In this document: piece by piece, positions 4,403 through 34,333 of the stretch
Layout: each line of letters starts with the position of its first letter
Position numbering within the stretch: the stretch's first letter is position 1
Virus record (IMG/VR): IMGVR_UViG_3300046463_000374
Span: 1-39,561 of that record
Source: a virus
Length of the DNA stretch: 39,561 bases
Strand: one strand, 5' to 3'
The notes under the pieces: model-generated
What the model was told of the DNA's origin: nothing
Database searches by the model: none
What the model saw: only the letters and a program-made list of their open reading frames with translations
Made by a program: the position numbers and the translations under genes

Positions 4403-5880
4403 TAATTCCCCGTATTGTCCGGAATAGGTTTGATCGCCGTCGCCTTCGCAATTTCGGCCGCGTCCGCTTCTGCGGATTCGGCTTTGATGCGCGCGAGTTC
4501 GGCGGGCACGTCTTCGACGTCGTATTGCTCGGCGAGCGAGGTCGTCGCGGTTTCCTTCGAGAGCAAGCCGCCCGACGTCAGTGCGCCGAGCGTCGTCGCT
4601 TCGTTGGTCTTGTCGGCCCAGGTCGGCATATACCAATCCGGCCATTTCAGAACGAACGGCTTGTCGGTCGCGATGGCGGGAATCTTCTCGCCTTCGGAAT
4701 TGACAAGCGCGGCTTTCTGCGACGCCTTCGCGATCATGCGATAGAGTTGCAGCAAGCCTTTTTCGCCGTAGGAGATGCGCAGCTTGTCGGCGAGCCAGAT
4801 AAGCGCCTGATTCATCAACTCCATTGCGCGCCCTGACTGAGCCGCCGCGATCTTGTCGGCGTCCGCCTTGTTGCCGTGAATCGATTCGAGCGCAACCTGG
4901 CGCGCGAGCCGCACGTATTCGAGCAGCGCGTTCGTACCGTCACCGCTCATTTCGAGCAACTTCGCGTCGCCGTCCGCGCCGACCGTGATCGCGTTGCCGC
5001 CGCCCTTGACGAGCGTTCCGCCTTGACCTGTCGCCGGCTCTTTGATGAGCAACGTCGGGTCGCTGGCGTACTTCAGCGCGCGCCCGCCTTGCGAGAGCAG
5101 GTAATCGAGTTCGATGTTCGTGTCGATCGCTTTCGCGAACGTGCACTTTCCGTCGATTTCGTCGCCGCCGGGAAGGTTGCGAATCCAGACGATCGGCACG
5201 AAGCCGAGCGAGTGCGAGACAGAGCGGCCGGCATCGCGCGCCATCGTTTCAGGGTCGTTGCCCTTCGCGACCGGCATCGGGTCGAACCACGATTCGGCGC
5301 TCGCATCCCACTCGCGCCGGAACCAGAAGTCTTTCGCAAGGTCGTCGTCGCCGATCGGATAGCCGAGCGCCTTCAGCGCGCGACCCTTCGTTTTGTACAG
5401 TTCGACGACTTTCGCGAGCGTGTCGGGCGCGTCGGCTTGCCACACAGGCGTGAGGTATTGCGTGTTCAGCGCGTCGAAGAACAGCCGATTTTTCAGCACG
5501 CGCATCAGCACCGCGACCGAGCCGACCGAGCCGCGCGTCGCCGCGTCGATCATGGTCTCGTTCAGGTGGCAATCCTTCGCGATCGCTTCGAGCGCTTCAG
5601 CCGCGTCCGGGTTCTCGCTCGTCACCTTCGGAAAATGCTCTTCGGAGAACAGCAGGCCGACAGAATCATCGACGACCGCGGAGCAGAGCGCGTAAGGAAC
5701 AGACGGGCGGCGCTCGCGCAACTGGATATATTCTTGCGCGTCGTTCTTTTCCGTATGGAAAGGGTAGGGCAGAACGTCGTAAATCGTGCCGTCGAGAACA
5801 GCCGTCAAACAACCGACTGTGTGCGCTCGATCGGGCAAATCATTGTCCTTCGGGTGTCGGTCGCGGAGGGATTTCCACAT
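4402..5880 (-). CDS. Portal protein
   Basis: A 492-residue protein at the portal position, between large terminase and scaffold/capsid. Features typical of SPP1-gp6-like/phage portal proteins are a long helical stem region with LLEYVRLARQVALESIHGNK, the clip-like stretch before it (TLVKGGGNAITVGADGDAK), and an acidic, alanine-rich C-terminus (RIKAESAEADAAEIAKATA). The dodecameric ring would form the DNA channel at the capsid vertex and dock the terminase. Its ATG follows immediately after the stop of a 59-residue gene with no spacing and no good ribosome site, so translation is probably coupled. Its stop overlaps the methyltransferase start. Confidence 0.85.
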   Translation of the reverse strand: MWKSLRDRHPKDNDLPDRAHTVGCLTAVLDGTIYDVLPYPFHTEKNDAQEYIQLRERRPSVPYALCSAVVDDSVGLLFSEEHFPKVTSENPDAAEALEAIAKDCHLNETMIDAATRGSVGSVAVLMRVLKNRLFFDALNTQYLTPVWQADAPDTLAKVVELYKTKGRALKALGYPIGDDDLAKDFWFRREWDASAESWFDPMPVAKGNDPETMARDAGRSVSHSLGFVPIVWIRNLPGGDEIDGKCTFAKAIDTNIELDYLLSQGGRALKYASDPTLLIKEPATGQGGTLVKGGGNAITVGADGDAKLLEMSGDGTNALLEYVRLARQVALESIHGNKADADKIAAAQSGRAMELMNQALIWLADKLRISYGEKGLLQLYRMIAKASQKAALVNSEGEKIPAIATDKPFVLKWPDWYMPTWADKTNEATTLGALTSGGLLSKETATTSLAEQYDVEDVPAELARIKAESAEADAAEIAKATAIKPIPDNTGN

Positions 5881-6060
5881 TCAATGAATCCGGTATTGTG
5901 TGAGATGGGTCGAGCCGATCACGCCATCAGGAACGCGCGTCATGACTGCGGAAACCGTGTCGAAGCCCGTTTGCTCGAACACCGCCTCGAACAGCCGCAG
6001 CTCATGTTCCGGTTCGTAATGCTCCATTTGAAGCAAGGTCGAATAGGTCTTGATTTTCAT
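5881..6060 (-). CDS. Small uncharacterised protein between methyltransferase and portal (59 aa)
   Basis: An open frame of 59 residues beginning MKIKTYSTLLQMEHYEPEHE and ending THLTQYRIH. GAGG lies seven bases before its ATG. Its first 59 bases overlap the 3' end of the upstream methyltransferase gene in another frame, and its TGA directly abuts the portal ATG. That exact fit, filling the whole gap, supports it as a real gene. It is acidic, with no Cys pairs, signal or membrane segment. I do not recognise the family. A role in packaging or portal assembly is possible from position only. Confidence 0.6.
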   Translation of the reverse strand: MKIKTYSTLLQMEHYEPEHELRLFEAVFEQTGFDTVSAVMTRVPDGVIGSTHLTQYRIH

Positions 6061-20141: not shown

Positions 20142-20609
20142 ATGGCGTCATATCAGAAGGTAATCGTTGCGGGCAACCTGGGCCAAGACCCGGAAGTGCG
20201 CTACCTCACGAACGGCGATGCCGTCGCGAACTTCAGCGTTGCCGTCACCGAGTCATGGAAGGATTCGGGCGGCCAGAAGCAAGAGCGCACCGAATGGTTT
20301 CGCGTCGTCTGCTTCAAGCGCCAAGCGGAAATCGCTGGCGAATACCTGAAGAAAGGCGCGCAAGTGCTCGTCGAAGGCCGCATGCAAACCCGGTCGTATG
20401 AGGCGAAGGACGGAACGCAGAAGTACGTCACCGAGCTACGCGCCGACACGTTCAAGATGCTCGGGTCGCGCGCCGACAACGAGAGCGCGCCGCGCAATCC
20501 GAGCACAGGCGCCCCGCGCCAGCAGCGCAACAATGCGCCCTCGCGCCAGCAACCGAGCGCGCCGAGCGGCGGTGGATTCGCAGATATGGATGATGACATT
20601 CCTTTTTGA
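20142..20609 (+). CDS. ssb: Single-stranded DNA-binding protein
   Basis: A 155-residue SSB. The OB-fold (residues 1-107) has VIVAGNLGQDPEVRYLTNGD, NFSVAVTESWKD and EWFRVVCFKRQAEIAGEYLK. A Gln/Pro/Asn-rich linker follows, with the acidic tip DMDDDIPF that binds partner proteins. I start at MASYQKV (20142) with AAAGGAAAG ahead, since the in-frame upstream sequence is Pro/Arg-rich. It protects single strands during replication and works with ERF. Its stop is followed by the repeat array described at 20662. Confidence 0.94.
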   Translation: MASYQKVIVAGNLGQDPEVRYLTNGDAVANFSVAVTESWKDSGGQKQERTEWFRVVCFKRQAEIAGEYLKKGAQVLVEGRMQTRSYEAKDGTQKYVTELRADTFKMLGSRADNESAPRNPSTGAPRQQRNNAPSRQQPSAPSGGGFADMDDDIPF

Positions 20610-20661: not shown

Positions 20662-21079
20662 GTGGTCTGGCGTGGCGAGGCGGGGCAAGGTCTGGTCAGG
20701 CACGGCAAGGCAAGGGCTGATTTCTCAGCGGATAGGCGGTTGATTCAGCCGCCCTTCCGATGCGAAAGCATGGCGCGGTCTGGTGTGGCACGGCTTGGCC
20801 GGGCGAGGCAAGGACTGGCAAGGCAAGGGCTGTTTTCAGCGGAAAACTTCAGGGTTTTCCGATGCGAATAGCGTCACGTGGCTTGGTATGGCAGGGTCAG
20901 GCAAGGCGGGGCGGGGTGTGGCAAGGGCTACAAAATAGCGGTAAGCCTTCGGGCTTACCGGTGTTCGTAGAGCATCGCAAGGCGCGGATCGGCGCGGCAG
21001 GGCTAGGCGCGGCGTGGCTTGGAGCGGCAAGGGCTGATCTCAGCGGGAAGCGTAAGCGCTTTCCAGTGCGATTAGCACG
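20662..21079 (+). repeat. Four tandem units of GGNNN pentamer runs plus three covarying hairpins; candidate structured RNA
   Basis: Each unit has a run in which GG recurs exactly every five bases (10, 11, 9 and 10 pentamers), ending GGCAAGGGCT. Then come hairpin 1 (starting 20716, 20829, 20927, 21033: GCTGA/TCAGC, GCTG/CAGC, GCTA/TAGC, GCTGA/TCAGC), hairpin 2 and hairpin 3. Hairpin 2 always has eight pairs but a different stem: GGCGGTTG/CAGCCGCC, GGAAAACT/GGTTTTCC, GGTAAGCC/GGCTTACC with TTCG loop, GGGAAGCG/CGCTTTCC. Hairpin 3 is ATGC/GCAT with GAAA loop, GATGC/GCGTC, GGTGTT/AGCATC, GTGC/GCAC. The compensated changes show selection for pairing. Function is unknown. Confidence 0.85.
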
Positions 21080-21124: not shown

Positions 21125-21694
21125 ATGGCAACGATCAACATTCGCGCAACTTCGATTTCCCCGATGCTCATGCACTCGGATCGCTTCGCAAACCCGCTCG
21201 ATCCGATGACGAAGGCGCATAAGAGCCTGACGAGCAAGCGCAAAAAGACCGACTCGGATCACGAGGACATCGCAAAATCCGAATGGCTCGGCGCGCTGTA
21301 CTTCGACAAGAAACTCGGCATCCATATCCCCGGCCAGAACATCGACGCATGCTTGATCGGCGGCGCCAAGCTCCGCAAGCAGGGCACGAACATCAAGCGC
21401 GCGGCAATGGTTGTCGAGGATATGGTGAAGCTCGAATACGTCGGCCCGAAAGACCCGGAAAAGCTTTTCGAGGATACGCGCTTCGTCGACGTGCGCGGCG
21501 TGAAGGTCGGAACCGCCAAACTCATGCGCTGCCGCCCGAAGTTCATCGAATGGTCGATGTCGTTCTCCGTATCGCTCGACACGGAATTACTCAACGTCGA
21601 CGAGTTCGTTGAAATCGCCCGCGACGCCGGCCGCTTGATCGGTCTCGGCGATTACCGCCCGCGCTTCGGCAAGTTCTCGGTCGAGGTCGCGTAA
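21125..21694 (+). CDS. Conserved-type phage protein downstream of the repeat array (189 aa)
   Basis: A 189-residue protein, MATINIRATSISPMLMHSDR, with a basic loop (KAHKSLTSKRKKTDSD, residues 30-45), then LGIHIPGQNIDACLIGGAKL and a C-terminal IGLGDYRPRFGKFSVEV. The strand-helix alternation and the Gly-rich end recall ferredoxin-like RNA-binding folds such as those of RAMP/Cas7-type proteins, but this is a shape impression only and no family is assigned. AAAGGTGAT is the ribosome site. Its long leader is the repeat array, so the protein may bind or be regulated by that RNA (speculative). Confidence 0.68.
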   Translation: MATINIRATSISPMLMHSDRFANPLDPMTKAHKSLTSKRKKTDSDHEDIAKSEWLGALYFDKKLGIHIPGQNIDACLIGGAKLRKQGTNIKRAAMVVEDMVKLEYVGPKDPEKLFEDTRFVDVRGVKVGTAKLMRCRPKFIEWSMSFSVSLDTELLNVDEFVEIARDAGRLIGLGDYRPRFGKFSVEVA

Positions 21695-22167
21695 TGGAAA
21701 CCATCACCCTTTATCCACTGTGGAAGCAAGCCGTTGAGAACTTCCTTGCTCTCCCGCACGCGCCCGGTGCGATCATCAAAAAAAGCTGGCTCGCCGACGA
21801 GTTCGGACTGAAGGCGCCGGAAACGGCGCAGGAACAGAAGGATTTCGAAATCGAATTTATGCGGTCGTTCAACCAGTTCCGCGACTCGATTTTGAAAGGG
21901 CACAACGTCTGCCTCAAAACGCTCTATAACGGCGCCTATGAGGTTGTCGCACCCCAGGCGCAGACGGAGCACGCCGAGCAGGTTCACATTAAGGCGGTGC
22001 ATCGCGAATTGTCGCTGATGATGAACAAAATGCGACATGTGGATTTTGAAGCGCTGACCGACGAGGAGCGGCGCCGGAACGCTGACGCACTCGCGCGCGC
22101 GGCGCAGTTGAAACAGACGGTGCGCGGGCGCCGCCAAATCACGATGACCGCCAAGAGGATCAAATGA
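21694..22167 (+). CDS. Hypothetical early protein (157 aa)
   Basis: A 157-residue mostly helical protein whose ATG overlaps the previous stop as TAATG. The N-terminal segment METITLYPLWKQAVENFLAL and the ASWLADEFGL-like stretch (KKSWLADEFGLKAPETAQEQ) suggest a small winged or helical DNA-associated domain. The C-terminus is strongly basic (RGRRQITMTAKRIK), consistent with nucleic acid contact. No catalytic motif is seen. Its stop overlaps the MazG-like gene, so both are in one operon. Confidence 0.66.
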   Translation: METITLYPLWKQAVENFLALPHAPGAIIKKSWLADEFGLKAPETAQEQKDFEIEFMRSFNQFRDSILKGHNVCLKTLYNGAYEVVAPQAQTEHAEQVHIKAVHRELSLMMNKMRHVDFEALTDEERRRNADALARAAQLKQTVRGRRQITMTAKRIK

Positions 22168-33526: not shown

Positions 33527-34333
33527 ATGAACTGCTTCGCGCGTATGATTCAGGCTGCAAAATTTATGGCAGCGAGAAAGGTAATGAGGGGAATAGCGGC
33601 ATCGCTTCTTGGCGTGCTTGTAATGGCGTGCAGTGGATGCGGCGGCGGGGGAGGCTCCGACGCGCCGAGTCAGGCAACAAAAAAACCATCCGGCCCGGTG
33701 CTTATCGAGTCTTACGGCGACTCGACGACCGAGGGTTACACGACCGGCATTTACGGGGTAAATCCCGACAATCAGGTCGCCGTTCTGCAAAGACTTCTGC
33801 AAGCAAAGTACGGCTCGACCGTCACCGTTTCGAACCAAGGCGTCGGCGGAATGGAGTCATCGCAACTGCTAAACGGCACGGACGGGCGCCACCCGACGTG
33901 GGCGCAACAAATGGCCCAATCGAAGGCGCAAATCATCACGATCGAATTCGGACTCGGCGACAATGACAATTTCACGCGCCCTGATCCGCTTCCTGATCGT
34001 GAGCGGAGCAGCCCGCAGCGCTACGCGCAAATATTGACCGAACTTGTAACGACCGCACGCGCAGCAGGAAAGCAGGTTGTTTTGATTGAATCAAACCCGT
34101 CCTGCACCGTGTATCGCGAGCAAAATCAAGGTTATTACGCAATGCAGGTCGATGAAGTCGCGAAGCAATTAGGCGTGCCCGTCGTCAGCCACTATTGGAG
34201 CATCGTCGCGATGCCGAATTGGCAATCTCTTCTCAGCGAGGGATGCGTGCACCCCTCGACTGAACTCTACGCAATGGAGGCCAAACTAACATTTGATGTC
34301 GTTTCGCCTATCGTTGCCGACGCACTCAAATAG
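33527..34333 (+). CDS. SGNH/GDSL hydrolase lipoprotein, lysogenic-conversion moron
   Basis: A 268-residue plus-strand gene inside the minus-strand late operon, with its own promoter and AAGGGG ribosome site. It has a signal sequence and lipobox LVMAC (Cys35) or CSGC (Cys38), a Gly-rich spacer, and an SGNH hydrolase domain: ESYGDSTTEG with nucleophile Ser66, NQGVGGMESS, EFGLGDNDNF, and EGCVHPSTE with Asp/His. It is likely an outer-membrane esterase or deacetylase made by the lysogen, for example altering O-antigen acyl groups to block superinfection. That purpose is inferred. Confidence 0.82.
   Translation: MNCFARMIQAAKFMAARKVMRGIAASLLGVLVMACSGCGGGGGSDAPSQATKKPSGPVLIESYGDSTTEGYTTGIYGVNPDNQVAVLQRLLQAKYGSTVTVSNQGVGGMESSQLLNGTDGRHPTWAQQMAQSKAQIITIEFGLGDNDNFTRPDPLPDRERSSPQRYAQILTELVTTARAAGKQVVLIESNPSCTVYREQNQGYYAMQVDEVAKQLGVPVVSHYWSIVAMPNWQSLLSEGCVHPSTELYAMEAKLTFDVVSPIVADALK

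Follow-up and report, generated by a model that had tools for sequence, protein, structure and literature searches.

Within a 39,561-base stretch of viral DNA (hereafter the window, meaning the whole stretch that was analysed), a four-unit tandem array at 20662-21079 is flanked by an ssb gene (20142-20609, Pfam SSB) and a gene at 21125-21694, raising the question of what such an array encodes and upon what it may act. A sequence-only reading of the locus had described spaced GG runs and covarying hairpins, had proposed several roles for them, and had known of no named family that possesses this structure. Such a family was named in April 2026, when a bioRxiv preprint described VIPR (Viral Interference Programmable Repeat), a CRISPR-like, RNA-guided phage system (PMC13142463). 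VIPR comprises a phage-borne RAMP protein, Vipr, together with vrRNAs, each consisting of 9-16 YNNGG repeats in which GGY is fixed and NN is hypervariable, followed by a structured tail that contains a pseudoknot in the SUSP1 clade (PMC13142463). Target DNA is read through the NN pairs, one base being skipped for each; RNP formation and silencing were shown for SUSP1, with copurification also for a P. fulva system, and VIPR has been proposed as a forerunner of CRISPR (PMC13142463). A literature search for a second VIPR paper found none, and a search on the sequence GGCAAGGCAAGG and on pentamer repeats returned nothing relevant.

Anatomy and position of the array

All four units share one make-up, a run in which GG recurs every five bases, then GGGCT, then three hairpins (Table 1). 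The runs contain 11, 12, 10, and 11 GGs in units 1-4, including the GG of GGGCT, and 10, 11, 9, and 10 full pentamers, and each of the four terminates in GGCAAGGGCT, as had been described from the letters of the window. When the whole window was shuffled 200 times by a first-order Markov model and both strands were read, the longest strict GG run was 6, and the runs of the array are therefore not attributable to chance. The three hairpins were likewise found in 4/4 units, with the cTTCGg loop in hairpin 2 of unit 3 and the GAAA loop in hairpin 3 of unit 1. Hairpin 2 had been taken to have eight pairs throughout, which holds for the uninterrupted 8-bp stem of units 2-4 and, with a bulge, for unit 1, in which 8+3 bp surround an internal loop. 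A promoter had also been proposed upstream of the array, where a sigma-70 consensus scan, a crude one, recognised none. Comparison of the window with known phages yielded only similarity to a Pseudomonas phage, at the level of the terminase, and no match for the other half. Among the late genes, a GDSL-type lipase/acylhydrolase gene (33527-34333) has tail-fibre-like PHROG matches.

Table 1. Predicted features of the array locus and its surroundings; guide runs begin at the first GG of the strict five-base period.
Feature	Position	Strand	Remarks
vrRNA unit 1 guide run	20664..20718	+	NN: [GT] CT GT GA GG AA CT CA AC, then AA AA (end partly constant); terminates GGCAAGGGCT
Unit 1 tail	20716..20771	+	hairpin 1 20716-20729 (loop UUUC), hairpin 2 20730-20758, hairpin 3 20760-20771 (loop GAAA)
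vrRNA unit 2 guide run	20772..20831	+	NN: [AT] GC CT GT AC TT CG GA AA CT, then AA AA
Unit 2 tail	20829..20875	+	hairpins 20829-20840, 20841-20860, 20861-20875
vrRNA unit 3 guide run	20880..20929	+	NN: [GT] TT AT AG CA AA GG GG GT, then AA
Unit 3 tail	20927..20976	+	hairpins 20927-20939, 20940-20959 (cUUCGg), 20960-20976
vrRNA unit 4 guide run	20981..21035	+	NN: [AA] GC TC GC AG TA GC GT TT GC, then AA
Unit 4 tail	21033..21078	+	hairpins 21033-21044, 21045-21064, 21066-21078
vipr gene, 189 aa RAMP (phrog_4652)	21125..21694	+	profile match PDB 36pp; Cas7/Csm3 fold of model
Putative vap gene, 157 aa (phrog_5926)	21694..22167	+	start overlaps vipr stop; homolog in wV8
Own-ssb stretch resembling guide 1	20364..20390	+	3 mismatches of 18, confined to a pair of adjacent codons, which read GRM in place of GKL

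The vipr gene and its neighbor

By profile and by predicted fold, the gene at 21125-21694 is identified as encoding a Vipr protein of the Cas7/Csm3 RAMP type. A profile built from 46 homologs gave a single strong match in the PDB, to 36pp ('SUSP1 Vipr protein', E=3.4e-64, residues 1-190). The best PDB matches of an AlphaFold2 model (pLDDT 96.2) are Csm3/Cas7 subunits of class 1 CRISPR effectors, with VIA-align Z scores of 9.5-11.3 across fifty listed entries, all of which are CRISPR effector proteins. Homologs this close occur in around 130 of 50,697 phage records; the protein of the window is closest by homology to those of SUSP1-like and Pseudomonas phages, and the nearest cellular Vipr lies in a Rhodoferax MAG. 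A Felixounavirus-type vipr was also seen at 91697-92263 of GU169904.1 ('Staphylococcus phage SA1'), a record that may be mixed or misnamed, and another Vipr homolog lies at 3672-4445 of L154, a contig reached via the guide of unit 2 (terminase match).

The following gene, 21694-22167, has a homolog behind vipr in the SUSP1-like Felixounavirus wV8, an Escherichia phage (hhalign 98.7%, E=2.7e-16), and is therefore very likely a vap gene, the wV8 gene being presumed to correspond to SUSP1 vap1. Homologs were found in about 30 array loci. The modelled product consists mainly of helices, plus a small beta hairpin; a PDB fold search with it yielded no significant match, only weak winged-helix rows.

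Arrays of the same type in other viruses

An IMG/VR scan with a query of six pentamers plus GGCAAGGGCT found the array type in 111 further viral contigs, nearly all with the same design and mostly in tandem. Over 307 distinct runs, the number of GGs is mostly 9-14 (mode 12), the third pentamer position is C in 69% or T in 23% (Y 92%), and the last two positions are near uniform; the strict GG period of the sequence-only reading was thus borne out, its better description being GGY followed by NN. TA is under-represented among the NN dinucleotides (0.79 of expectation), a bias that targets in coding sequence would produce. One strand alone bears the pattern in each of 31 whole records, and a reversed-pattern control gave zero throughout.

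Several loci depart from this design. Those of L097, L100, and L104 have a shorter, single-hairpin tail (GGGCTGCACTCGGTAGTGAAAGCCTATCGGTGCGGATTTGC), up to eight runs, and a linked Vipr homolog, and probably represent another VIPR type. GG runs lie very close together, with ~5-20 bases between them, at 5727-6025 and 6621-6772 of L030, perhaps corresponding to the 'staggered' arrays of the preprint (PMC13142463). GGYNN arrays in L015, L025, L035, and L067 occur on stored stretches without a Vipr homolog and are either stand-alone vrRNAs or accompanied by a more divergent Vipr. In wV8 (EU877232.1), the 'DR_4' direct repeats beside gene 95 (60811-60868 and 59418-59475) adjoin its VIPR vrRNAs; L165 is listed with them.

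Conserved structure of the RNA tails

RNAalifold applied to 40 diverse tails predicts hairpins 1 and 2, with compensatory changes in 11 of 14 pairs. Paired cells amount to 95.2%, as against 69.9% in shuffled alignments, and the covariation score is 0.642, as against 0.177 +/- 0.018 (0/500 shuffles) and at most 0.152 in slid controls, the shuffles in both comparisons ignoring relatedness. The stem covariation first noticed among the four units is thus real over homologous tails. No Rfam family exceeded the gathering threshold in the window, and tRNAs were the only families to do so in 15 related loci; the earlier view of a structured, phage-borne RNA in tandem units outside Rfam stands.

The loops also appear to be coupled. 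Complementarity between loops 1 and 3 within a tail totals 340, as against 278 +/- 12 when loops are exchanged between tails (0/2000, a test that ignores relatedness), and the same exchange applied to loops 1 and 2 as a control revealed no excess complementarity. Loops UUUC and GAAA of unit 1 are perfectly complementary, and in unit 4 loop 1 (AUC) can pair with loop 3 (GAU). There is thus evidence of a kissing contact between loops 1 and 3, with covariation of the two, that is conserved in this clade and agrees with the published pseudoknot (PMC13142463).

Guide code and candidate targets

The skip rule was assessed by comparing 305 guides with 1 Mb of fetched phage DNA, GG runs masked, at skips of 0, 1, 2, and 3 bases. 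Exact matches of 18-20 bases were obtained at skip 1 for 3/305 guides, all three in wobble phase, and skips 0, 2, and 3 gave none, so that the rule is re-derived independently, from sequences other than those of the preprint. One of these guides (L053, 7196-7248) matches the vipr gene of L074 (662) in wobble phase, with no mismatch over 18 guide bases (peptide SEDIGPYLP); judged by this match, the system of one VIPR phage is directed against another such phage.

With each NN taken as an NNx codon, unit 1 of the window gives V-L-V-D/E-G-K/N-L-H/Q-T, the SSB signature VLVEGKLQT, and unit 3 gives F/L-I/M-S/R-H/Q-K/N-G-G-V (FISQKGGV), the ParA P-loop. The 16-base core of guide 1 was found in 18 IMG/VR contigs, in five of which it lies in ssb genes (Pfam SSB) in wobble phase, and in the ssb of three phage contigs (L118, L119, L122) the match is exact over 18/18 bases, all nine dinucleotides included. 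The 16-base core of guide 3 was found in 13 contigs, twice in ParA-type P-loops (L137, L140). Seven SSB genes, that of the window included, were assembled independently of the guide; against this set guide 1 has 3 mismatches of 18, a score equalled by 0/200 other real guides and by 1/200 order-shuffled versions of guide 1. A self-target search in the window found only the site with 3 mismatches in the phage's ssb (Table 1), and in 250 genomes from the order to which a Rhodoferax MAG belongs guide 1 matched nothing at 0-1 mismatches.

It is conceivable, at perhaps one chance in a few, that the array is a true VIPR array whose ssb and parA readings reflect a chance likeness to conserved motifs, the real targets being other genes. 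Consistent with this, no contig matches more than one guide at <=2 mismatches, the sole second match, one of guide 1 with 3 mismatches, lying in the ParA contig G288, and units 2 and 4 point to no clear gene. The relaxed matches of unit 2 (terminase, sigma-like, and other genes) do not permit a gene to be chosen; exact 18-20 base IMG/VR scans with guides 1-4 gave 0, 0, 0, and 1 hits, the one hit, of unit 4 in L114 (18 bases), being rejected as out of wobble phase and chance-level; and no exact full-length targets of units 2, 3, and 4 were found in these scans. However, the exact wobble-phase matches of guide 1 in three ssb genes and its rarely equalled score on the independent SSBs argue against a chance likeness. 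The targets are most likely the ssb (unit 1) and parA (unit 3) genes of rival phages or plasmids, although, as both motifs are conserved, the exact rival cannot be named. Whether the phage silences core housekeeping genes of its rivals (SSB and a ParA-type partition ATPase), its own ssb escaping guide 1 through two changed codons, is an evenly balanced proposition.

Arrangement of the loci and alternative roles

A vipr homolog was found in 94/113 array loci by tblastn and in 95/113 by profile, and in many of the 18 loci without one the stored stretch ends at the array. Of the runs within 2.5 kb of a vipr homolog, 345/353 lie on the same strand and 8 on the opposite strand. The array is upstream only in 29 loci and downstream only in 32, and 34 loci have arrays on both sides of vipr; in the P. 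aeruginosa phage LESphi2 it again immediately precedes vipr, in the integrase-side part of the genome.

These positions bear on the proposal that the array is a leader riboregulator, which in its most explicit form would make it a cis-acting 5' leader of the downstream gene, bound by Vipr as a TRAP-like autoregulator recognizing a triplet every five bases. The array of the window does lie directly upstream of the vipr start codon, and its 9-11 triplets at a 5-nt spacing resemble a TRAP site in form. However, with the array downstream only or on both sides in so many loci, a leader role is not general; further, a near-random NN is needed by guides and not by a leader, and exact skip-1 targets exist. 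A leader is thus very improbable. An RNA sponge, also suggested, is wrong or unsupported. A recombination or replication site linked to SSB/ERF, with phased protein binding or G-quadruplexes, is scarcely credible in spite of the ssb and erf genes that adjoin the array in the window, as ssb accompanies 7 and erf 2 array loci against the 94 with the downstream gene, array or vipr loci occur in early, regulatory, and tail regions of phages, the tails show compensatory pairing, and the conserved pyrimidine of GGY and the free NN, both of which belong to the published vrRNA design, would be left unexplained. With ssb so rare near other arrays, the place of this array beside the phage's own ssb looks coincidental.

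A model for the window locus

Taken as a whole, the array almost certainly represents four plus-strand VIPR vrRNAs that would be coated by Vipr and silence targets, most likely ssb for unit 1 and a parA-type gene for unit 3. The anatomy, homology, fold, covariation, strand-specificity, linkage, and, in related phages, the skip rule give direct support to the VIPR assignment, and the locus combines the parts by which VIPR is defined, namely a Vipr RAMP, 9-11 GGYNN pentamers, a structured tail, and a gene beside vipr homologous to that of wV8. RNA binding, DNA targeting, and silencing by the window system are proposed by analogy with the published one (PMC13142463). This model holds that four vrRNAs would be made from the plus strand of the array, and that Vipr, a minimal Cas7-like RAMP, would coat each RNA with one subunit per GGYNN pentamer, keeping the GGY bases unpaired and presenting the NN pairs. 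These pairs could then bind double-stranded DNA as NNxNNx, the skipped base usually falling at the wobble position of a codon. A kissing contact of loops 1 and 3 would close the three-hairpin tail, which would cap the guide in the manner of a crRNA handle, and target binding would silence the gene, aided by the accessory protein of 21694-22167. VIPR itself is already known; with this locus it gains an uncultivated phage carrying guides of its own, and what is new, the inferred ssb and parA targets, provides candidates open to direct testing.

Relation to known systems

The closest counterpart is VIPR type II, the clade of SUSP1 and a Pseudomonas fulva prophage (PMC13142463), which shares with the window a Vipr RAMP homolog, GGY/NN runs of 9-16 repeats, a structured tail with a pseudoknot-like contact, an adjacent accessory gene, carriage by a phage, and, as predicted for the guides of the window, targets read with a one-base skip. 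However, one SUSP1 vrRNA lies upstream and three downstream of vipr, whereas all four in the window lie upstream; the tail sequence is unlike that of SUSP1-like wV8 and similar to the tails of LESphi2 and Medea1, both Pseudomonas phages; and the targets of type II are a satellite phage or lysogeny regulators, in contrast to the ssb and parA predicted here. Class 1 CRISPR-Cas (Cas7/Csm3) shares the RAMP fold and a guide with a structured handle. It differs in its identical repeats and unique spacers, which the array of the window lacks, its units showing pentamer runs and tails whose sequences differ from one unit to the next, and the guide of the window is gapped, with 2/5 bases informative, and served by a single small protein. 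TIGR-Tas likewise has a phage-borne tandem guide-RNA array. Its guide-RNA-binding domain, a Nop domain, is a different one, and it is not known to have a GGY/NN code. The gapped code of VIPR is unlike that of other guide RNAs.
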